Assembly: GCF_040436345.1 (NCBI RefSeq)
Contig: NC_133215.1
Coordinates: 35,772,306-35,836,305, forward strand
Direction of reading: 5' to 3'
From: Pagrus major
Lineage: Eukaryota > Chordata > Actinopteri > Spariformes > Sparidae
DNA: 64,000 nucleotides
A program made the translations under genes and the position numbers. The notes under the pieces were generated by a model. That model was given only the letters and a program-made list of their open reading frames with translations. It searched no databases and was not told the DNA's origin. Below are positions 4,455-55,492 of the stretch, piece after piece; position 1 is the stretch's first letter; each line of letters starts with the position of its first letter.

Positions 4455-23439
<18,985 letters not shown>

Positions 23440-24478
23440 GCTGGCTCAGAGGGGATTTGGTTTTGAACTTGTGATATCCACCAGCACTAAATGTCAGCAG
23501 ACAAACACAGCAACACTAGATGTTGCTTTGCTAATACTGAGAACCCAACACTGACCCCAGCATCTGAGATGTGTTGTTAATTCTAGTAACAGCAAACTGT
23601 AGTAGTTAGTGATTAGAGCGCCACCTGGTGGGCTGGAGGATTAATCACAACAAATCACCGTGACAGTGAAGACATGGTGGTCTAACATAGGACAGGCAGA
23701 AGACAGCTGAAACAGACAGGCTTCAGACAAAGCGGGCTGAGCTGGGCTATAAACTTAACACTGAACAGTCAGGGTCAACCTCACATTACTGCCGCTGGAA
23801 TGGTGCTGATCCACACAGAGCAGCTAGTCTGACTTACACTGATGCATGCTCCATCCATACTCCAAACCAAATCAAACTGAACTCAGTCTGCACTCATCTG
23901 TGCTGCCTTCATGTCTGGAGGCTCTTATGGTATAAAAAGTGTGTGGCTGCCTAAACAAGCTAAGTATACTTGGAATTTATTATCATAGTTATGGCCATCA
24001 TTTCTATCAGTGATAATAACATTGTACTCAATTAACCCTCAAATTAATTGCTGGAATGTGTGAACACGGAGACATGATTCAAAAGTAGTCTGATGTGGCA
24101 AACATCCATCACAGTTTACAGACAGACCTCCTGCTTCAATTTCAACACTCTTCTTCTGTTTTGCATAGCAGCCCTGGCACTGCACTGCACTGTTAAGGCC
24201 AGGTCCCATATGGAGTGAAAATGACGGATGTGAATGGGGTTTACTACAGCCAGCCCGGTGTGGCTGCAGGTACATAAACGTATGATAAAACACTGTTTTT
24301 GATTCTGTTTACTGATTAACAGTAGCTAAACCCTGGGAATATTTATAAAATTAATAAAGATGATTTACTTTGTACATTTTTATCGCAGTTGCCCTCAGTA
24401 TGTGTGTGTGTATGTATGTGTGTGTGTGTGTGAGTGTGAGTGAGAGAGAGAGAGATACAGACTGATATCTGTTGCTAA
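23440..24478 (+). other. tesk1: tesk1 3' untranslated region and poly(A) signal
   Basis: No coding sequence. AATAAA at 24353-24358 with a T/GT-rich stretch after it is the first good polyadenylation site, giving a 3' UTR of about 0.9 kb. A second AATAAA lies at 24936-24941 inside the duplicated block that follows, with a TGGTTGTG...CTGTGTGCTG downstream element. Which site is used is unknown. (GT)n and (GA)n tracts at 24402-24460 sit at the edge of the duplication. Confidence 0.55.
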
Positions 24479-26556
24479 AGGAAGGAACTTCCTCCGCTCG
24501 TCATGTAAATTCTTTATTTTTGCACACAGTTTGGAGCACCTTACAGTAAGACACCAGGCTTTTACTAGACGGTGCTTTATTTAAATATGTGTTACTGCTG
24601 TTTTATGTGTGTGTGCTTCTGGCCCAACGAACTACAGAGCTCTCACCCTTTGACATCTACTCCCCCTCACATGTATCTTGTGTATTTACATATACATTTT
24701 GATTACACTGTTGTTGTAACTTAAAAAGTGGCATGTGAAACAGGTATGAATATTTATTGTACAGATCATTCCACACACTGTGTGTGTACAGTATGTGCTG
24801 CGAAAGGTAGAGTGATGGATACTAACAGGATACATTTTATCCTATCATTTCTGATGTTAAACCATGGTTCTTGCTTCATTTCTATTTTTGTTCTGTTCTT
24901 CCATACAGCTAGAAACCTGCGTGCAATAATCTGGTAATAAAAAACATGGTTGTGCATAACCCTGTGTGCTGTTTTTTATTTCTTCTTTTTAAATTGGCTG
25001 AAAGTGAAAAAGTAAGGTTTAATTGAAAAAGAGCAAGTTTAAAGTTGCGAACATTACAATTAAAATGATTCACTAAATACTTCTGCAGATGAAGCAAGGA
25101 AAAATTCCAATGATATCAACCACAGTAAACACTGCTCAAAATGTTTAATCATTTCAACGTAATACAAGGAGTTTATAACTGCTCATGAATCAGTCTCAAT
25201 TTAAAACTGATAGTGACTGTAGTCCAGTGGTACAGCACAAACCCTGTTTACTGTGTTTCACCATTGTCATATCTATGATATATTTGTATTACATAGCCAC
25301 AAATAGATTCATTATGTCGTCGGCATGCATCCTGTAAACAGCTGTGTTTAAAAAAGAGAAGAAGCCGAGTATAAAAAATGTGTGTTGTTCTTTAATTTGC
25401 TTTCTAAACAAATGCAATGCATTTGTGCATACAATGGTGTATGAGAGGTGGATAGTGATCAATCCAATATATAGACATATACATAGATTTACATAATTTC
25501 ATGTGAATAAAATATAATTGAACTTATGATATAAAACTACTTTCAGTTTTGTGAATAGATATATCTTTTGTGTTTAAACTCCTACATTCAGCTTACTATG
25601 TTACTCCCCTCACTACAGAATTCCAAACAAATGTATTCTCACTTTCACTCTGTGGAGGGAGCAGTGTGCAGTACTTTCTGCAGTTTGAAAGAACTGCTGC
25701 CATTTCTTGTAAATGGTGGAGGGAGGGGTGAGCAGCAGTCGCAGTGTGGAGGCATGAATAATCCTGACCTGAATATTAACTGTTGCCTGAACAAGAGTTC
25801 ACTACACAACTGAACTTAGTGTTCCATTATAATAATACAATAATTAATATTTGGGTATGTTTAAATGGAGCTGTACTTTCAAGTGGATAAACAGAAACAT
25901 AGTTATTTACAGGACACTTCCCAGGAAGTGATGAGGAAGTCATTTTAAATTGTGTAAATTAATGTGCATTACGACTAAAACAAGCTGGATAAGATGACTT
26001 TAAACCCTGGCTGCTCAGGTTTGGATGGTCAAAAGTTGCTGTGGGCAGTGATCGTTTCAAAGTCTGCTGCTTTTCATCCAAAACCCACACTTTCTTCTCC
26101 AATACTGATGAATGTGTTTCTGCCATTGGAAATACTTGTTTCAGCAACAAAGAACAACAATAAACAGTTTAAAAAAAGAAGAAGAAGCAAATGTAAATGC
26201 CAGTGGGCTAATTTTATGACAAGTCCTGCTTTAAAAGTATATTTTTTTCTTTCTTTCTTGAAAATGTTAATGCACCATAGTGCCTTATATTACAATGTAT
26301 ACATTTCTGTCACACATTCCGTTGTTGGGATTTGTGCAGACATTAACGATACATTATGTACAGTGCTTTTGAAATGACTGTAAAGCAATTTCATAGCAAT
26401 CCTTGCTGATTTACCCATAAAAAATATTAGAGCTAGCCTTAGCTCACATGGCTATTGTTCACCTGGACACCCTAGCCAGACTAATCTATGATAAAAACTT
26501 AGAGCCAACCAACCAAATAATATTTTCATTATTTTTGGCAAGTTTAATTTATTAAT
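24479..26556. repeat. Tandem duplication, copy 1 (about 2,078 bp)
   Basis: Every landmark in this block recurs 2,076 bases later with only scattered substitutions and one 2-base indel (CACACAGTTT against CACAGTTT), so the duplication is recent. The block contains a poly(A) signal at 24936, AT-rich sequence, an IRF-like site at 25638-25651, and a GAACTGCTGCCATTTCTTG core near 25690. Short open frames (for example 25994-26377, 127 codons) are duplicated along with it and have no recognisable domain. Confidence 0.95.
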
Positions 26557-28634
26557 AGGAAGGAACTTCCTCCGCTCGTCATGTAAATTCTTTATTTTTG
26601 CACAGTTTGGAGCACCTTACAGTAAGACACCAGGCTTTTACTAGACGGTGCTTTATTTAAATATGTGTTACTGCTGTTTTATGTGTGTGTGCTTCTGGCC
26701 CAACGAACTACAGAGCTCTCACCCTTTGACATCTACTCCCCCTCACATGTATCTTGTGTATTTACATATACATTTTGATTACACTGTTGTTGTAACTTAA
26801 AAAGTGGCATGTGAAACAGGTATGAATATTTATTGTACAGATCATTCCACACACTGTGTGTGTACAGTATGTGCTGCGAAAGGTAGAGTGATGGATACTA
26901 ACAGGATACATTTTATCCTATCATTTCTGATGTTAAACCATGGTTCTTGCTTCATTTCTATTTTTGTTCTGTTCTTCCATACAGCTAGAAACCTGCGTGC
27001 AATAATCTGGTAATAAAAAACATGGTTGTGCATAACCCTGTGTGCTGTTTTTTATTTCTTCTTTATAAATTGGCTGAAAGTGAAAAAGTAAGGTTTAATT
27101 GAAAAAGAGCAAGTTTAAAGTTGCGAACATTACAATTAAAATGATTCATTAAATACTTCTGCAGATGAAGCAAGAAAAAATTCCAATGATATCAACCACA
27201 GTAAACACTGCTCAAAATGTTTAATCATTTCAACGTAATACAAGGAGTTTATAACTGCTCATGAATCAGTCTCAATTTAAAACTGATAGTGACTGTAGTC
27301 CAGTGGTACGGCACAAACCCTGTTTACTGTGTTTCACCATTGTCATATCTATGATATATTTGTATTACATAGCCACAAATAGATTCATTATGTCGTCAGC
27401 ATGCATCCTGTAAACAGCTGTGTTTAAAAAAGAGAAGAAGCCGAGTATTAAAAATGTGTGTTGTTCTTTAATTTGCTTTCTAAACAAATGCAATGCATTT
27501 GTGCATACAATGGTGTATGAGAGGTGGATAGTGATCAATCCAATATATAGACATATACATAGATTTACATAATTTCATGTGAATAAAATAGAATTGAACT
27601 TATGATATAAAACTACTTTCAGTTTTGTGAATAGATATATCTTTTGTGTTTAAACTCCTACATTCAGCTTACTATGTTACTCCCCTCACTACAGAATTCC
27701 AAACAAATGTATTCTCACTTTCACTCTGTGGAGGGAGCAGTGTGCAGTACTTTCTGCAGTTTGAAAGAACTGCTGCCATTTCTTGTAAATGGTGGAGGGA
27801 GGGGTGAGCAGCAGTCGCAGTGTGGAGGCATGAATAATCCTGACCTGAATATTAACTGTTGCCTGAACAAGAGTTCACTACACAACTGAACTTAGTGTTC
27901 CATTATAATAATACAATAATTAATATTTGGGTATGTTTAAATGGAGCTGTACTTTCAAGTGGATAAACAGAAACATAATTATTTACAGGACACTTCCCAG
28001 GAAGTGATGAGGAAGTCATTTTAAATTGTGTAAATTAATGTGCATTACGACTAAAACAAGCTGGATAAGATGACTTTAAACCCTGGCTGCTCAGGTTTGG
28101 ATGGTCAAAAGTTGCTGTGGGCAGTGATTGTTTCAAAGTCTGCTGCTTTTCATCCAAAACCCACACTTTCTTCTCCAATACTGATGAATGTGTTTCTGCC
28201 ATTGGAAATACTTGTTTCAGCAACAAAGAACAACAATAAACAGTTTAAAAAAAGAAGAAGAAGCAAATGTAAATGCCAGTGGGCTAATTTTATGACAAGT
28301 CCTGCTTTAAAAGTATATTTTTTTCTTTCTTTCTTGAAAATGTTAATGCACCATAGTGCCTTATATTACAATGTATACATTTCTGTCACACATTCCGTTG
28401 TTGGGATTTGTGCAGACATTAACGATACATTATGTACAGTGCTTTTGAAATGACTGTAAAGCAATTTCATAGCAATCCTTGCTGATTTACCCATAAAAAA
28501 TATTAGAGCTAGCCTTAGCTCACATGGCTATTGTTCACCTGGACACCCTAGCCAGACTAATCTATGATAAAAACTTAGAGCCAACCAACCAAATAATATT
28601 TTCATTATTTTTGGCAAGTTTAATTTATTAATAG
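26557..28634. repeat. Tandem duplication, copy 2
   Basis: Head-to-tail copy of the preceding block. The junction is at AATAG|GAAGG (about 26556-26560), and the right end AATTTATTAATAG at 28634 repeats the end of copy 1. The two short shared bases at the break suggest non-homologous joining or replication slippage. The poly(A) signal recurs at about 27012. Confidence 0.95.
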
Positions 28635-31499: not shown

Positions 31500-31513
31500 A
31501 GTTTCAGTTTCAC
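31500..31513. promoter_or_regulatory. Interferon-stimulated response element upstream of GIMAP-like gene 1
   Basis: AGTTTCAGTTTCAC is an exact match to the ISRE consensus AGTTTCNNTTTCNC. It ends 108 bases before the start codon of the first coding exon, the usual promoter-proximal distance. This suggests control by ISGF3/IRF factors, in keeping with the immune role of the family. No clear TATA box is seen. Confidence 0.65.
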
Positions 31514-31621: not shown

Positions 31622-31640
31622 ATGACCAGCAAATACTACG
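31622..31640 (+). CDS. GIMAP-like gene 1, first coding exon
   Basis: Nineteen coding bases (MTSKYY plus the first base of a Gly codon) with donor GTAAGT. The ATG is preceded by CCAAC, a fair Kozak context. It is unrelated in sequence to the first exon of gene 2. Confidence 0.8.
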
Positions 31641-34600
31641 GTAAGTCATAATGATATGTGCTCATGCTGTTAGTTACACTCTAATGTGTTATACATAGTA
31701 TCCTTCAGCAACCCTAAAACCTCTCAGCTCACTGTAACAATGTTCATGAATTGTATAAAGCCAGTCACAAGCATGACAGTGAATGTTGAAAGAAAATGTA
31801 CTAAAAACATAAATTTCTGTTTTTTATGGCATTCAATCAGAACTATTTCAACGATGACAGTCTGGAGTGAAAGCAGATGGTTACCTTTATTTGAAAGCTA
31901 AAGTTCAAGTTTAAAAGTTGTAAAGATAACATTAGAAGAGTGTCAGTGGATAAAGTATGGATAAGAAAGAAACCAACAGTTAACATGTAACATATTGCTC
32001 ACTGCCACACAAGGTAAATGCAACCTCATCGCTAGAATAAATGTTGGCAATGCAACTTTCTGCAAACTAATGATATGTTGAACCTTTACATTTATGTAGG
32101 TTTAATTTAAATGTTATGGTGTGACCACAATGAGCCCGGTCTGGTTAGGTTTAGGCAACAAAAAATGGTTAGTATAGGTTTGGAAAATGTCATGTTTTTC
32201 TTTCTTAAAATGCCTGTTTTCGTCTAAATTGTCCAGATTGTCTCCTGAAAATATAAAAATAAAAATATCCAGTGGTGTCACACTTACAAATGTTGGAGCT
32301 CAGGCTCGCTCTGCCATAAATATATAATGTGAACATTATATGACATGTATTGTAGGAATGTCAATATGGTACATATGACACAAATGTAAACACATCAGTC
32401 ATTTACAGAATGTCAGGTTAAATGTCAGCATTTTATTCTGGTGACTGAGCTGTAGTACAACTATTGGTTTTTGTGCAATAGGAAATGAACCATTGTTTAA
32501 GTTGAGTTTAGTTAACTTAACTAATTGTTCCAATTCTAATAGCAGGTTGCTGTAGTGGATTTGGATAGTGAACCACAAGGATATGTGTCACTTTTTCTGA
32601 GAGGCCAATTTAAGAAATTGAGACTGCATTGAGTCAAAGACGCTATAAAAATTGGCATAATGATTTTGTATTTCTATACAAACGAGCTATAGTTTATAGT
32701 TTTTGTGACTAACCATCAAGATATTCCTTTTCTACACAGAAAAATAAAACTGTATGTCGTCTGAATTTAAGTTTCTCTTTCACACTTCATTCAAACTGGA
32801 CAGAAACTAAATTAAAGTCACCACAACAGTGTTGATTTGTCTTTCTACAACCACCTCTCATTTGGTCCAAATAAATCCTCAGTTCACAGAGTAAGATATG
32901 AAAATTGACCAGCTGGAGGCACCATGGACACAAGCAACCCAGCACAGCTACTGACAGTCCTATCTTTCTACATGGAGTTTGCCTTTGATAGTGATCAATA
33001 ATCAGTAAAGATGGTGTTAACAAACTCTGTTTGACTGTTTATGAGCAAAATGCTCTGTTTAACTGGAGGAGGAGGAGCGCTGCGGGGTGTCTCTATGTGC
33101 TTAATGTGGTCCGTGGATCTCTGTCCTCTGATCGGACAGGACAGGTCATAAGAACTATTATTCTGATCAATGGGGGATGAGGTGTGGCTGGATGTAATAC
33201 TTCATCTTTAATGAGGAACATATTAATAACATAACCTGCAGCCATCCTCCAGCATCAGGGCCCATCTGTTTGCTGGCTGAAATGGTGCACAGCGCAGCGC
33301 AAGTGTCGTTGGTCTTAAAATGAGGTGAGATCAGGTGCTTTGCTGGCGCATCTTGGAGCAGCAGAGAGTGTTTGCGGTAATAAGATGGGCCCTTGAACTA
33401 AAGTCAATGTCGCAGTGATTTACCTGCTATATAGAGGGCAGCAAAACTAAAATCTGTAGGTATAAACAGGACAGTACAGAGGATACTCTCCGGAGGAAAC
33501 AGCAGCGATGGCGCTCAGGAGTCGGGAGATTTCAATGATCAATGAAGTTAAACTCTGTCGTGTGTGTAAACACGCGCATCGTTTCTCTTACGGGGGCTGG
33601 AGTCCATTGCAGGTTATGTTATTAATATGTTCCTCATTAAGGATGAATTATTTCACACACCCACACCCAATCCCCTATTCTTCAGAACAACACTATCCCT
33701 GAGCATTTCTGTAAGCGTCTATGTTTTACCCTGTTTCTGTAATGCAAAATCAGTCCTAGACTGACTGAGTCATCATCTTTCTGGGGACACCCCAGTGTTT
33801 GTGTCAGTGTTTTGTTATCAGATATGGGATTTCATTAGTTTTTTATTTGTTACATTTTCAGATACATTTTCAACACATGAATAGAAAATCATTAGAACCA
33901 TATTACATTAAACATGAGTTTACCACTACAGTTTGTCAGAACTCACAAATTTTATCAGGGAGCCACTGAATTTACTGGCACCCACTCAAATGACCAGCTG
34001 TGGGTCCCTGGTACTCACTATATCAAAAACCTATCAATATCACTGAGCCCCAAAAAGCTGATCAGAACTTTTCTAATAGCCCTAAGCTGTAAATTAGCTG
34101 TAAAATATTTCACTATAGCTCCATGATGAATCATAGACCTAAAGTCTTGACTACAGTTCTACACAGACTGTAAACGCTTGCATGATGTTGATGCAGTTGA
34201 ATCCAGATCCAGTCTTATCTAATGGTATTTATTCTCCCATACAGGAGTAAATCATGTGGAGCTGAGGATGGTGATGGTGGGGAAGACAGGAATTGGGAAG
34301 AGTGCCACTGGAAACACCATTCTGGGACGACAGTGCTTTGAAGCCAAGTTGAGTGCAGTGTCTATGACTGTGAACTGTTCTAAGGGCAATGCTACGGTGG
34401 ATGGGCAACAGGTTGCTGTGATTGACACCCCGGGCCTGTTTGACACCAGGTTTGGCATGGACAAAACAGCTAAAGATATATGCCAGTGCATCTCTTATGC
34501 CCTTCCTGGACCCCATGTATTCCTGGTGGTCATCAGGCTGGGCAGATACACTGATGAAGAAAAGCAGACGGTGCAAAGGATTCAAGAAATCTTTGGCCAG

Positions 34601-35254
34601 GCAGCAGACAAATACAGCATGGTTCTCTTTACTGGTGGGGACCTTCTGGAAGTCACTATCGAGGAGTTCTTGAATGAAAGCCCAGACCTGCAGCAACTTG
34701 TGTCCAGATGTAACGGCCAGTACCATGTCTTCAATAATAAGATAAAGGATCGCTCTCAGGTCAGTGAGCTGCTCCAAAAGATTAGAAATATAGTCCAGAG
34801 GAACGGAGGAAGCCACTACACCAACGAGATGTTCCAAGAGGCCGAGAGGGCAATCGAAGAGGAGAAACAACGCATCCTGAAAGAGAAAGAAGATCAAATA
34901 CGGAGAGAAAGAGAGGAACTGGAGAGGAAACTTCAGAAAAAATATGACAAGGAGATGAACAAAATTCAAGAGCAACTCCAGGCTGAGAGAGAGAGGGAGA
35001 AAAGAAGAAGAGAGGAGGAAATGAGGAGGGAAAGGAGAAGGAGGGAGATGGAGAGGGAGATGGAAAGGATTAGGGAGAGGGAGGAAAGAGAAGCAGAGAG
35101 GAAGAGAGAGGAAGAGGAAAGACAAAGAATGATGGCAGATATGAGGAGACGTCGAGAGGAACAACGTGAAAGAGAACTAGAAGAGGAAAGAGAACAGTTG
35201 AGAAGGCAAGCACAACGACAGGCTGAGAGTGATGATGACTGTACGATTCTCTGA
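31622..35254 (+). CDS. GIMAP-like (AIG1-type) GTPase, gene 1, 342 aa, CaaX-like end
   Basis: Two coding exons: 31622-31640 (MTSKYY plus one base) and 34245-35254. The donor is ACG|GTAAGT, the acceptor CCATACAG, and the frame is kept (GGA across the junction). GIMAP proteins are septin/dynamin-related GTPases that assemble on intracellular membranes and affect lymphocyte survival and pathogen control; fish have expanded sets. P-loop GKTGIGKS (19-26), G3 DTPG (67-70), the AIG1 conserved box LVVIRLGRYTDEEK, G4-like TGGD (136-139) and G5-like YHVFNN are present. About residues 205-330 are a Glu/Arg-rich coiled coil. The last residues, DDDCTIL, form a CaaX-like box with Leu last, expected to favour geranylgeranylation. 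A poly(A) signal lies at 35734. The GTPase region is almost identical to that of the gene at 37911. The exact family member number is not assignable. Confidence 0.93.
31641..34244 (+). other. Intron of GIMAP-like gene 1
   Basis: A 2.6 kb intron. About 33060-33500 is a repeat fragment that shares GTTGGTCTTAAA.TGAGGTG with 49178-49205 and, in the inverted sense, GAGGAGGAGGAGCGCTG with 49760-49780. The rest, including the reading frames at 33508-33702 and 33914-34126, has no recognisable content. Confidence 0.5.
33060..33500. repeat. Dispersed repeat, deleted copy
   Basis: Related to the longer copy at about 49140-50115. Shared words include GAGGAGGAGGAGCGCTG (inverted relative to the other copy), CTTTAATGAGGA, and TTGGTCTTAAAATGAGGTG. 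Mixed orientations suggest a foldback or MITE-type structure. Confidence 0.45.
34245..35254 (+). CDS. GIMAP-like gene 1, GTPase and coiled-coil exon
   Basis: Single exon carrying the whole AIG1 domain and tail, as is usual for GIMAP genes. Compared with gene 2 it lacks one codon after GGDLLE and diverges completely after the coiled coil at about 35010. Stop TGA at 35252-35254. Confidence 0.95.
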
Positions 35255-37469: not shown

Positions 37470-37910
37470 GGAGAGCAGTGCACAGTCGAGTGCAGAACTT
37501 AAAAGAACTGCTGCCATTTCTCGGAAATACTAAGGGTAGGAACAAGAAGGGCAGGCTTATGTAGCTGCTTTGTGCAGCAGTGTCTGCTGTGCGGTTTCCT
37601 GTAAATGGTGAGAGAGCTGAGAGCAAGGGTTGAGTTTTAGCTGTTAAAAACAGTGGACACAGAAGATAAACTTCAGATAACAATGATCATAACTATAACT
37701 GTATGCACAGTTAATTATTGAGTTCTTGTCAGCTGTAATTACAGTTATACGTCATCTAATAAAAAGTCATTATGTAAGTGAAACAACTGTGATTGGTGGA
37801 GCCAGTTGTGGGTGGGGTTTGTTGCATAGGCTCATGTTAAAAGAGCTGCAGCAGACACACTCTAAACTCTCACTTCAGCTGCTGTGTCAACTCTGTACTC
37901 AGACCCAAAC
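37470..37910 (+). promoter_or_regulatory. Upstream region of GIMAP-like gene 2, related to the duplicated block
   Basis: 37480-37530 (GAGCAGTGCACAGT..., AAGAACTGCTGCCATTTCT) and 37598-37616 (CCTGTAAATGGTGAGAGAG) match the core of the blocks at 25660, 27736, 29360 and 30310. Nearer the gene are GTGAAAC at about 37779, a CCAAT box on the minus strand (ATTGG, 37792-37796) and a GT-rich box. These suggest the promoter; the start site is not defined. Confidence 0.5.
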
Positions 37911-38079
37911 ATGGAAGGCAACTTCAACAACCCGAACATGCCCGGCAACTTTTACAACCCGAACATGCCTGGCAACCCGAATATGCCCGGCAACTTTTAC
38001 AACCCGAACATGCCTGGCAACTTTTACAACCCGACCATGCCTGGCAACTTTTACAACCCGAATATGGCAAGCAATTTAG
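37911..38079 (+). CDS. GIMAP-like gene 2, repeat-encoding first exon
   Basis: ATG GAA is followed by five 27-base units and one 18-base unit (37917-38069), then AGCAATTTAG before the donor. The DNA units are nearly identical (GGCAACTTTTACAACCCGAA core), so the array is young and could vary in number. The ATG has the context CAAACATGG. Confidence 0.88.
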
Positions 38080-39980
38080 GTAAGTTTTTATTCATATTTT
38101 AAAGTACAATTATTTACTTAGTATAACAGTGATCACTGCTGAATCTAATTTTATTTGGCACGACTGTACCGCTGTACCTGTGTATAGACCTGTGCTGAGT
38201 AGAACTGCAAAGACATACTTATTATTTTGCAATTCTAACCTAACCTTTCATTCATAAAATGACATTACATTCTGGATTACTTTAGTATATTCACCAGATT
38301 TTTCAGGTAAATGTCAAGATTTGTTGGTCACTAGGAACAAGATATGGCACTTTTAAGTCAGATAAATGCCATTTTGTTCTAAAGAATCTGAGCCCTCTTT
38401 AGGTGTTAGGTTCAGAAAATGTGCTTTGAAATTGAGCTCAACCTTTTCACATTTGCTGGTCTACTGAGTGGTGTCACATAGACAAACAGTTACATTATTG
38501 TTAATTATTATGACTCTATTGTTTTCCTAAGGAGAAGGCAACTTAAAAACTAAGAAATCTCCAGTTTAAAAGGACTGCAGCCATGTCCCACTATTGGTGA
38601 TCTGAGCAGTATACTGAATGGATATCTGATCATGGAAAGAAAACAGTGCATGAATAAATCAGTTTGTCCCAAGTGACGTGTCTGAAAGAGAAATATAGTA
38701 CATTTCCTTAGTCCAGTTTTTACAAAACTTTGAACCCCTGACAAACTCCCTTTTTGGCTCTCTCAAAACAGCTGAATAGGCGTTTCTTTTCTCCCATGTT
38801 TGTAGACATTGCATTGAGTAGAATGTACCTGATGTAGATTTGTTGTCACTCATTCTTCTACACAGGATATAGCCGCACAAATAATGTGGAGCTGAGGATG
38901 GTGATGGTGGGGAAGACAGGAATTGGGAAGAGTGCCACTGGAAACACCATTCTGGGACGACCGTGCTTTGAATCCAAGTTCAGTGCAGCGTCTATGACTG
39001 TGGACTGTTCTAAGGGCAAAGCTACGGTGGATGGGCAACAGGTTGCTGTGATTGACACCCCGGGCCTGTTTGACACCAGGTTTGGCATGGACAAAACAGC
39101 TAAAGATATATGCCAGTGCATCTCTTATGTTGCGCCTGGACCCCATGTATTCCTGGTGGTCATCAGGCTGGGCAGATACACTGATGAAGAAAAGCAGACG
39201 GTGCAAAGGATTCAAGAAATCTTTGGCCAGGCAGCAGACAAATACAGCATGGTTCTCTTTACTGGTGGGGACCTTCTGGAAGGCACCACTATCGAGGAGT
39301 TCTTGAATGAAAGCACAGACATGCAGCAACTTGTGTCCAGATGTAACGGCCAGTACCATGTCTTCAATAATAAGATAAAGGATCGCTCTCAGGTCAGTGA
39401 GCTGCTCCAAAAGATTAGAAATATAGTCCAGAGGAACGGAGGAAGCCACTACACCAACGAGATGTTCCAAGAGGCCGAGAGGGCAATCGAAGAGGAGAAA
39501 CAACGCATCCTGAAAGAGAAAGAAGAACAAATACGGAGAGAAAGAGAGGAACTGGAGAGGCAACTTCAGAAAAAATATGACAAGGAGATGAACAAAATTC
39601 AAGAGCAACTCCAGGCTGAGAGAGAGAGGGAGAGGAAGGAGAGAGAGGAGGAGAGGAAGAGGGAGAAGGAGGAGATGAATGAGGAGAAAAGAAGGGAGAG
39701 GGAAGAGAGAGAAGCAGAGAGAAAGAGAGAGAGAGAGGAGAAAGAAAGGCAGATGACAGACATGATGAATAGAATACAGGAACAGCATGAGCGAGAACTG
39801 AAAGAAGAAAGGACAAAGTTACAGTCCAGGTATGAGGGTGAGGCCAGAGAGGAAGCTGAGGGGTTTAATCCATTATATCCTCTGGTACAAGCAGGTGAAC
39901 TAGCACTTGACGCTGGCAGAAAAGTACTTGCAGGAGTTAAACAACTGGGAAGGGCAATTGGGAGCTGGTTCAAATTTTGA
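37911..39980 (+). CDS. GIMAP-like (AIG1-type) GTPase, gene 2, 427 aa, with N-terminal Asn/Pro repeats
   Basis: Two coding exons, 37911-38079 and 38866-39980, joined in frame (donor TTAG|GTAAGT, acceptor CTACACAG). Residues 3-53 are six tandem units of the GNFYNPNMP type, one lacking FYN. Then come the AIG1 GTPase domain with GKTGIGKS (72-79), DTPGLFDT, RLGRYTDEEK and TGGDLLE, and a long Glu/Arg coiled coil. After that comes a unique tail, FNPLYPLVQAGELALDAGRK and on to GRAIGSWFKF. The tail has an aliphatic/basic pattern like an amphipathic membrane-binding helix, and there is no CaaX box. The GTPase part differs from gene 1 by only a few codons, pointing to recent duplication or gene conversion. 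Poly(A) signal AATAAA at 40425-40430. A membrane GTPase role is inferred from the family. The function of the repeats is unknown. Confidence 0.93.
38866..39980 (+). CDS. GIMAP-like gene 2, GTPase, coiled-coil and C-terminal helix exon
   Basis: Begins GYSRTNNVELRMVMVGKTGI. The nucleotide sequence from about 38885 to about 39635 is nearly identical to 34255-35005 of gene 1; the 3' part is unrelated. Stop TGA at 39978-39980. The intron before it (38080-38865) holds nothing recognisable. Confidence 0.95.
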
Positions 39981-41084
39981 GTGGCCATGGCAGTTTAACC
40001 ACAGAAGAAGGTTCCAGAGGCTTTGGCACACAGGAACATATGAAATACAAAGAAAATGTAATTCATCCACACAACTATTTTTTTCATCAGAGTCAATGAT
40101 GAAGCTAATTTTATTTGTTGAGGCCCTCCTACAGGAGGTTAGTAAGGCTAAGTCACTTGTATCATGGACCCACATTTTCATCTAAGTGTCTTTTCCCTGG
40201 ATTTGTCTCTTTCCTGAATATTGCAGAGGATATATTTAGTGTGTACGTTTTATTTTTGACAGTATGAGATGTTGCATATCATAAACATGTTAAGATCATA
40301 TCATTACTCAATGAAATTATTCTTTTAATATTGCTTAGCTTTTCATTTAACCACTGCTCTTTGATTTTGCTTTATTGATGATGCTGATTAATGATGATGT
40401 TCTTGTGTGCTGAACTGAACTTGAAATAAAGATGTGATGTTAAGACTAATCCTTTGTCAAAGTGATAATTAACTGTCAAAGGTCACAGGCCAACACTCTC
40501 TCAGGAACTTAGAGTCATACACTAAAGTAGTTGTAGATAACACTGTTATTCATTTCACATTTTGAAATGATAACCCATCAATATCAAACATATTTAATAA
40601 AATGCAGCTTTTTTTTTTTTACAAATTACCTGGAATAAGGCCTGGAATGGCATCACCCCTCCCTCTCCACCCACACTAGTTTGACACACTACTACACAAC
40701 ATCATTTAAGAAGCTATACAATTATTTTGGAATTTATTTAGAGCGATAAAAGGCCCAGACTATCAACAATATTACTTAGGCCCACTGGATGGTGGTCTGG
40801 GTTCTCTAAAATGTAAAGATAAATAGGCAGCTAAAGCTGATGTGCTGGCATACTGGCATCATGAACCACTCAATTCTGCCCCCTCTGGCTCCAGTTTGAG
40901 CCAGAGGGGGCAGAATTGAGTTAAGGACTTTACAACTATATGCCTCAGTGTCCAGCCTACAAATCCTTCATCCGCACTAAATCAGTAAGTCGTAGTTTTT
41001 TTTTGTCAGAAATTCACAGAAGAAAAAAAGGTCCCTAATATTTCAATAAACACCACTTTGCCATAACTATGCCTTTATCCTGGC

Positions 41085-53977: not shown

Positions 53978-55492
53978 CACTACCAGTCAAAAGTTTGGAC
54001 ACACCTTCTCATTAAATGTTTTTTCTTTATTTGTATTATTTTCTACATTGTAGATCAATACTGAAGACATCCAAACTATGAAGGAACACATGGAATTATG
54101 TAGTAAACAAAAAAGTGTTGAACAAACCAGAATATGTTTTATATTTTATATTCTTCAGAGTAGCCACCTTTTGCTTTGATGACAGCTTTGCACACTTCTG
54201 CCATTCTCTCAGTCAGATTCATGAGGTTGTCACCTGGAATGGTTTTCCAGTCTTGAAGGAGTTCCCAGAGGTGCTGAGCACTTGTTGGCTGCTTTGCCTT
54301 CACTCTGCGGTCCAACTCATCCCAAACCATCTCAATTGGGTTTAGGTTGGGTGATTGTGGAGGCCAGGTCATCTGATGCAGCACTCCATCACTCTCCTTC
54401 TTGGTCAGATGGTCATTACAAAGCCTGGAGGTGTGTTTGGGGTCATTGTCCTGTAGAAAAACAAATGATGGTCCCACTAAGCGCAAACCAGAAGGGATGG
54501 CATGTCACTGCAGAATGCTGTGGTAGCCATGCTGGTTAACTGTGCCTTGAATTTTGAATAAATCACTATCAATGTCATCAGCAAAGCATCACACCTCCTC
54601 CTCCATGATTCATGGTGGGAACCACACGTGTAGAAACATCTGCTCACCTTTTCTGCGTCCCACAAAGACACAGTGGATGGAACCAAAAATCTCAAATTTG
54701 GACTCATCAGACCAAAGTACAGATTTCCACTGGTCTAATGTCCAATCCTTGTGTTTCTGGCCCAAGCTATTGTCTTCTTCTTCTTGTTCTTCCTCAGTAG
54801 TGGCTTCTTTGCAGTAATTCGACCATGAAGGCCTGATTCACGCAGTCTCTTCTGAACAGTTGATGTTGAGATGGGTCTGCTACTTGAACTCTGTGAAGCA
54901 TTTATGTGGGCTGTAATCTGAGCTGCTGTTGATTTGTGGTTTCTGAGTCTGGTAACTCTACTGAACTTATCCTCTGCAGCAGAGGTAACTCTTGGTCTTC
55001 CTTTCCTGGGGCGGTCCTCATGAGAGCCAGTTTCATCATGTGTTTGATGGTTTTTACGACTGAACTTGAGGATACATTCAAAGTTCTGGATATTTTCTGG
55101 ATTGACTGACCTTCGTGTCTTAAAGTAATGATGGACTGTCGTTTCTCTTTAGTCGAATAGCGCTATTCACTGTATTGAACTATGTACCAACCCTACACAA
55201 TTACACAAATTAACTCTTGACAAGGCGCAGCTGTTAATTAAAACCATTCCGGGTGACTACCTCATGAATCTGACTGAGAGAATGCCATCAAAGCAAAAGG
55301 TGGCTACTTTGCAGAATATAAAATATAAAACATATTCTGGTTTGTTCAACACTTTTTTGTTTACTACATAATTCCATATGTGTTCCTTCATAGTTTGGAT
55401 GTCTTCAGTATTGATCTACAATGTAGAAAATAATACAAGTAAAGAAAAAACATTGAATAAGAAGGTGTGTCCAAACTTTTGACTGGTAGTTT
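53978..55492 (-). mobile_element. Full-length but dead Tc1-like transposon with about 210-bp inverted repeats
   Basis: Ends ACTACCAGTCAAAAGTTTGG on both strands, with TA beside them. The terminal inverted repeats run about 53978-54185 and 55286-55492 and include GTAGATCAATACTGAAGACA. Minus-strand coding remains: SKFEIFG-like (about 54700), FLQDNDPKHTSR (catalytic Asp, about 54450), PPQSPNLNPIEMVWDELDRR (catalytic Glu, about 54350). Frameshifts split these pieces between frames, so no active transposase is encoded. Confidence 0.88.

Follow-up and report, generated by a model that had tools for sequence, protein, structure and literature searches.

Six tandem repeat units precede the GTPase of a red seabream GIMAP gene, probably through repeated copying across its own start codon

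The first exon of one of two adjacent GIMAP genes (gene 1 and gene 2) in the red seabream (Pagrus major) genome (786 Mb) carries six M-P-G-N-F-Y-N-P-N units (27 bp, one of 18 bp), followed by a stub (MASNL), a GT donor and, in the same frame, an AIG1/GIMAP GTPase. Both genes lie in the window, that is, the whole stretch of 64,000 nucleotides that was analysed (C1:35772306-35836305; Table 1). As far as sequence allows a judgement, the array in gene 2 is real, looks translated and sits in a GIMAP gene; related fish commonly have the same unit, in fewer copies. The arm appears to be the translated first exon (as predicted), and it probably grew by repeated tandem copying of approximately 27 nt across its own start codon.

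Table 1. Positions of predicted gene features and other sequence features within the window
Feature	Position	Strand	Description
Open frame	14689..15084		kinase-like HRDL stretch; presumably a kinase exon, perhaps TESK-type
Open frame	20736..21646	-	presumably a broken Tc1-type transposase
Direct tandem duplication	24476..26558 / 26553..28634		2.08 kb, 99.4% identical
Gene 1 predicted exon 1, coding part	31622..31640	+	no unit; MTSKYY + 1 nt
Gene 1 exon 2	34245..35254	+	AIG1 GTPase nearly identical to that of gene 2; coiled coil; CaaX-like end DDDCTIL
Gene 2 predicted 5' leader	37850..37910	+	5' end nominal; ends GACCCAAAC before ATG; in-frame S-D-P-N
Gene 2 exon 1 (repeat array + stub)	37911..38079	+	predicted coding exon
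Unit 1	37911..37937	+	MEGNFNNPN; predicted start codon at 37911
Unit 2	37938..37964	+	MPGNFYNPN
Unit 3 (short)	37965..37982	+	MPGNPN; 18 bp, 9-nt in-frame deletion
Unit 4	37983..38009	+	MPGNFYNPN; DNA identical to unit 2
Unit 5	38010..38036	+	MPGNFYNPT
Unit 6	38037..38063	+	MPGNFYNPN
Stub	38064..38079	+	ATGGCAAGCAATTTAG (MASNL + 1 nt); 16 nt; matches whole exon 1 coding part of 0-unit paralogues (ATGGCCACCAACTTAG)
Gene 2 intron 1	38080..38865	+	phase 1; GTAAGT ... ACACAG; junction common to Sparus P0002
Gene 2 exon 2, coding part	38866..39980	+	AIG1 GTPase followed by a long predicted coiled coil and an amphipathic helix at the C-terminus; TGA 39978-39980
Gene 2 candidate poly(A) signal	40425..40430	+	AATAAA
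Open frame	54139..55148	-	presumably a broken Tc1-type transposase

The fusion itself is as the first-pass annotation had described it, since sequence and translation at 37911-38079 give six units in frame with the GTPase. Tandem Repeats Finder (TRF) places the array at 37903-38066 (period 27, 6.4 copies, score 188), and the unit core occurs six times within it and nowhere else in the window (shuffle mean 0.27). When exon 1 is cut at its ATGs, it falls into five 27-nt pieces, one 18-nt piece and the 16-nt stub, and an in-frame ATG opens all seven. Any two of units 2-6 agree at 25-27 of 27 nt (16-18 of 18 where unit 3, the short one, is compared), and unit 1 shares 21-22 of 27 or 14 of 18 nt with the others. 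Because units 2 and 4 do not differ in DNA, and units 3 and 6 are identical across the 18 nt common to both, the array is young, as had been proposed. The composition is also as claimed: in the 57 residues of the arm there is no Lys or Arg and a single Glu. The predicted start is the first ATG downstream of a TATA-like stretch, and an in-frame stop lies upstream in the leader, so that initiation in this frame would begin within the array.

The GTPase is of the GIMAP type, as the first-pass annotation had it. Pfam analysis of the spliced gene 2 protein yields AIG1 (PF04548; E 1.8e-66, 223.9 bits, curated cut-off 27) and otherwise only weaker GTPase families, and the frame of exon 2 contains the GIMAP motifs G1 (P-loop GxxxxGKS, here GKTGIGKS) and G3 (DTPG, here DTPGLFD), which are invariant in an alignment of 23 chosen proteins (A1). 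The GTPase exons of genes 1 and 2 (34245-35254 and 38866-39980) are 92.7% identical over 947 bp, whereas their introns and first exons cannot be aligned beyond a weak promoter match; gene conversion between the GTPase exons is likely on this comparison. The C-termini differ, as gene 1 ends in the CaaX-like prenylation sequence DDDCTIL and gene 2 in an amphipathic helix. A CaaX-like end, found by a simple pattern, occurs in 31 of the 141 database proteins described below.

At least 150 AIG1 matches are present in the red seabream genome, and paralogues were sampled from the clusters closest to gene 2 (C11, C10 and C23). Together with genes 1 and 2, these contain 16 homologous copies of the leader and first exon: eight in C11 (for seven GTPase exons), five in C10 and one in C23. 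All eight C11 copies, the C23 copy and gene 1 have no unit, each of the five C10 copies has one, and gene 2 has six; thus, sister genes with the same promoter-leader-exon 1 layout have 0 or 1 unit. No second six-unit array was found in the genome, in which a protein search with the arm matched gene 2 only (E<=1); this search missed the five 1-unit C10 exons found by local scans and therefore lacks the sensitivity to count single units. Two leader/first-exon copies in C11 (C11:13782046 and C11:13784509; L015) precede one GTPase exon, and the excess of first exons over GTPase exons in this cluster makes alternative first exons possible. Most of the promoters also contain TTTCA[CG]TTTC, which we take to be an interferon-element-like motif, at 120-153 nt upstream of the start; gene 1 (31502-31511), C23, all C11 and four C10 copies have it. 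It lies within 400 nt in 14 of the 16 homologous promoters, which are not independent copies, compared with 95 of 534 background bins; the strict pattern is absent from the gene 2 promoter and from that of one C10 gene.

In other fish, the unit was sought among 141 database proteins (the best 120 of each of two protein searches, plus an arm-only search). Forty-nine of these were picked by hand for a tree, and 44 single-GTPase proteins were scored by eye, five being left unscored. The 92 that were set aside are multi-domain, truncated at the start, near-duplicates or provided with another first exon, and include the 0-unit proteins P0084 and P0128, the unit-bearing P0054 and the degenerate P0011. 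Between one and four units were found in 18 of the 44 scored proteins (12 clear, 6 degenerate), and 26 have none. A unit peculiar to gene 2 is thus ruled out, and the protein search of teleost GIMAPs that the first-pass annotation had proposed as a check does recover the unit; its view that GIMAPs do not normally begin with repeats is not borne out in this clade, in which one or two units are common. Sparus aurata P0002 has two units, MNSNFYNPNMPGNSYNPNMESNLG, preceded by an annotated leader-like stretch; Scatophagus (P0032) begins with MDSNFYNPNMPGSFYNPNMKGNFG, Thunnus (P0046) with MDGNYYNPNMASNYYNPNMASNLG, Dicentrarchus with MDGNCYNPNMAGNLG and Anoplopoma with MDTHFYNPNMASNLG, and Salarias P0052 has four units, of which one reads AGNLFNPAM. 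Six is the highest number among the proteins scored, and the expected variation between relatives is evident (six in gene 2, two in Sparus aurata, 0-4 in other fish). Gene 2 has the arrangement that marks fish GIMAPs with this start unit, in which exon 1 carries the unit or units and the stub M-x-x-N immediately ahead of the phase-1 junction. In 0-unit proteins, the stub MASNxG comes first, and the first Met of the stub does not vary in alignment A1; at a few unit boundaries in other fish (Salarias, with L, Siganus and Channa), M is missing. A tree of the GTPase only, with 57 labelled rows, joins gene 2 to gene 1 and the Sparus protein in one group (100/99). Copy number changes at least 17 times on this tree and presence or absence at least 13 times, counts that rest on labels given by eye and an unsettled bootstrap and are blind to gain versus loss. 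Two rows of the tree, C10_a and C23_a, carried no score and later proved to have 1 and 0 units. In Dicentrarchus labrax, P0034, P0054 and P0120 share one 1-unit first exon and a near-identical GTPase and differ at their ends (amphipathic tail or CTIL); it is possible, judging from these proteins, that one first exon is spliced to two neighbouring GTPase exons.

The first-pass annotation had overlooked that the array is in register with ATG, and with it the probable origin of the unit. The C11 leader ends CTCTTTAACCCAAAC before ATGGCCACCAACTTAG and would read L-F-N-P-N in frame, and the second half of the unit, TTTTACAACCCGAAC, encodes F-Y-N-P-N; likewise, TTTAACCCAAAC, the sequence before the ATG of sister genes, is similar to the final four codons of a unit, TACAACCCGAAC (Y-N-P-N). 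As an ATG opens each unit and its NPN(M) end resembles the leader of the sister genes, duplication of the translation start is suggested. Indeed, copying 27 nt in silico from 12 or 15 nt before the ATG of a 0-unit gene produces MATNLFNPNMATNLG, which is close to the 1-unit proteins that exist, MDTHFYNPNMASNLG or MASESYNPNMTNNLG, and the unit AGNLFNPAM of Salarias is a literal reading of such a leader. Leaders in C10 and C11 align without gaps up to the first ATG; the difference between them is therefore one whole unit inside the coding part. When comparisons were anchored at the ATG, the C11 leader matched the C10 unit at 10 of 12 positions (equalled by 3 of 7857 background ATGs) and gene 2 unit 2 at 9 of 12 (9 of 7857), and the C10 leader matched its own unit at 9 of 12 (4 of 7857). 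The leader of gene 2 matches its own units at 6-8 of 12 only (31 to 532 of 7857), with a gapped alignment score reached by 31 of 5000 shuffles, and the gene 1 leader gives no match (4 of 12; 2697 of 7857). In addition, when the C11 0-unit exon was aligned to the C10 1-unit exon, the score was 27 as it stands and 59 after tandem duplication in silico. The best duplications among lengths of 6-60 nt were 25-27 nt long and began 9-19 nt before the ATG, and random 27-mers from the C11 region, when inserted, reached 59 in 0 of 2000 trials. For the fifth C10 gene, the best duplication scored 37 compared with 18 without it, and the 27-nt score of 35 was equalled by 2 of 2000 random insertions. These anchored and in-silico tests were used because an unanchored scan of the C11 region was indecisive and did not single out leaders as the source of the unit: for the gene 2 unit, an unrelated site on the minus strand gave 24, compared with 19 for the leaders, and the C10 internal site scored 24 in a tie among all eight leaders and two other sites.

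It is reasonable to assume that the process would have begun with a single duplication that reached from approximately 15 nt upstream of the ATG to approximately 12 nt downstream into coding sequence. The original start codon would thereby be preceded by a new one, in a favourable context, and translation of the former leader would yield F-N-P-N. Subsequently, slippage or unequal exchange between units could alter their number by whole units, and such changes stay in frame since 27 is divisible by 3. Units could equally well be lost through these processes, so that in any one gene the direction may be either. More tentatively, gene 2 might exemplify a general mode of growth in which each 27-nt duplication of leader, ATG and first codons shifts initiation upstream and converts leader into a disordered unit, the boundary between leader and protein moving by whole units and leaving a fast-changing arm with a ladder of starts; we put the likelihood of this scheme somewhat below even. 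A literature search revealed nothing on fish GIMAP repeats or start-codon duplication, a weak negative given its thin coverage of subscription journals.

Other origins have to be weighed against copying across the start codon. The array might be an ordinary coding tandem repeat, in which slippage expanded a 27-bp stretch of the first exon. Its likeness to the leader would then be convergent, since AAAC stands before the ATG in any good start context of fish. The leader match is indeed short, and much of it consists of Kozak-like bases; without these four, the C11 leader agrees with the C10 unit at 6 of 8 positions (48 of 7857 background ATGs) and the C10 leader with its own unit at 5 of 8 (243 of 7857), and the non-specific unanchored scan and the missing motif in the gene 1 leader point in the same direction. 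However, convergence does not lead one to expect an array in ATG register that ends in a partial unit equivalent to the full coding exon of 0-unit paralogues, a best fit for breakpoints that straddle the ATG over all lengths and starts, the failure of random insertions or the Salarias unit, and we regard it as somewhat unlikely. The same kinship could have run in the opposite direction, with a longer ancestral arm losing its upstream start codons and its coding units decaying into leader. The C11, C10 and C23 leaders have ATC, one base off ATG, 27 nt before the start, and the unrooted count lets copy number go both ways; nevertheless, a triplet that differs from ATG by one base often occurs by chance, the three codons that follow it in the leader (TAC TCG GTA) are unlike those of the unit, and the gap-free C10 and C11 leaders confine the difference to the coding part, all of which makes decay improbable. 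Finally, the array could be an artefact of the gene model, either untranslated or replaced by another first exon in transcripts. Models in this family are fallible, as the Pagrus major database protein P0133, a 100% match to a C11 gene over all 371 residues, takes its first exon from an intron. Nonetheless, support for the join 38079/38866 comes from gilthead seabream P0002, whose sequence over the same junction is SNLGYSRTNNVELR, and a homologous leader and first exon ending in the donor G|GTAAG recur in 16 of 16 copies in the red seabream genome, so that an artefact is highly improbable.

With regard to the protein, the AlphaFold model of the Sparus relative, a weak one (mean pLDDT 61.6, pTM 0.43), gives arm residues 1-40 a pLDDT of about 30, in agreement with the disorder proposed earlier, and places helices 239-308 and 314-374 and a tail helix 379-409 alongside the GTPase. 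The tail of gene 2 has a helical moment of 0.67, which is typical of membrane-binding amphipathic helices. The GTPase would sit on membranes through this helix and the coiled coil, and it would dimerise on GTP like mammalian GIMAPs; GTP-induced dimers of GIMAP2 and proposed membrane scaffolds are described in a review (PMC8201404). Most likely, the arm would act as an uncharged, Asn/Pro/aromatic-rich, unstructured tether that adjusts spacing or weak self-contact within the GTPase assembly. Its absence from many relatives argues against an essential role.

A serious rival to the tether is an arm that has no role of its own and is merely tolerated as a by-product of an unstable start region, selection acting only on a good start codon; this could well be correct, although its chance falls below even. 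The majority of scored proteins that lack the unit and the frequent changes of presence and absence on the tree are in keeping with it, as is the unit of the fifth C10 gene, with three amino-acid changes and zero silent ones. On the other hand, most pairs among array units 2-6 show silent differences, and in 27 eight-residue unit copies (three gene 2 types included) P8 is kept in 25, N7 in 23 and Y/F at position 6 in 23; these are small numbers with shared ancestry, and such conservation in sequence hints at some constraint. The extra ATGs might instead serve translation, as back-up starts or by altering output and giving a ladder of N-terminal lengths. There are seven of them in frame, six with A at -3 and a copied context, and the family offers a precedent in CAST/Ei mouse Gimap3, which has 58 extra N-terminal residues and is reported to be a functional null through poor translation (PMC8201404). 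However, the context of the first ATG (AAAC ATG G) is the best of the seven and +4 is C at five of the six internal ones, so downstream starts should be little used, and a translational role is unlikely.

If copying across the start codon is correct, untranslated sequence became protein by a concrete route of a few small steps, with a start codon copied together with its favourable context and a unit length that keeps the frame. States 0, 1 and 6 coexist in one family in one genome, and related fish supply 2, 3 and 4. It would then be testable how disordered N-terminal tails arise and whether the fast-changing arms of immune GTPases are selected or tolerated, and the array would be a ready length-polymorphic marker in a farmed fish.

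The arms of galectin-3 and of annexins A7 and A11 are Pro/Gly/aromatic-rich, uncharged and disordered in style. The comparison that the first-pass annotation had drawn with them stands as regards composition, a general likeness, and fails for the repeat motif and the core domain, since PG-Y repeats before a lectin or annexin core are absent in gene 2, where the unit is MPGNFYNPN and Pfam gives no such core. Within the GIMAP family, CAST/Ei Gimap3 resembles gene 2 in that an N-terminal extension derives from the first-exon/leader region, but in mouse this is reported to result from a splice-site change without repeats (PMC8201404). With the vertebrate GIMAP/IAN proteins in general (AIG1; GIMAP4/7/9-like; solved structures GIMAP7 3zjc, GIMAP4 3lxx and GIMAP2 2xtp), gene 2 shares the AIG1 domain, GIMAP7 being matched by the Sparus relative at E 1.9e-50, and may share the coiled-coil region predicted after the G domain; it differs from them in its N-terminal repeat arm and in a predicted amphipathic C-terminal helix that replaces the transmembrane segment. 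Also close are the percomorph GIMAP4/9-like proteins (among them Sparus P0002, Scatophagus P0032, Thunnus P0046, Plectropomus P0068 and Salarias P0052), in which the unit M-x-[GS]-N-[FY]-[YF]-N-P-N occupies the same place before the same junction, with one to four copies compared with the six of gene 2.
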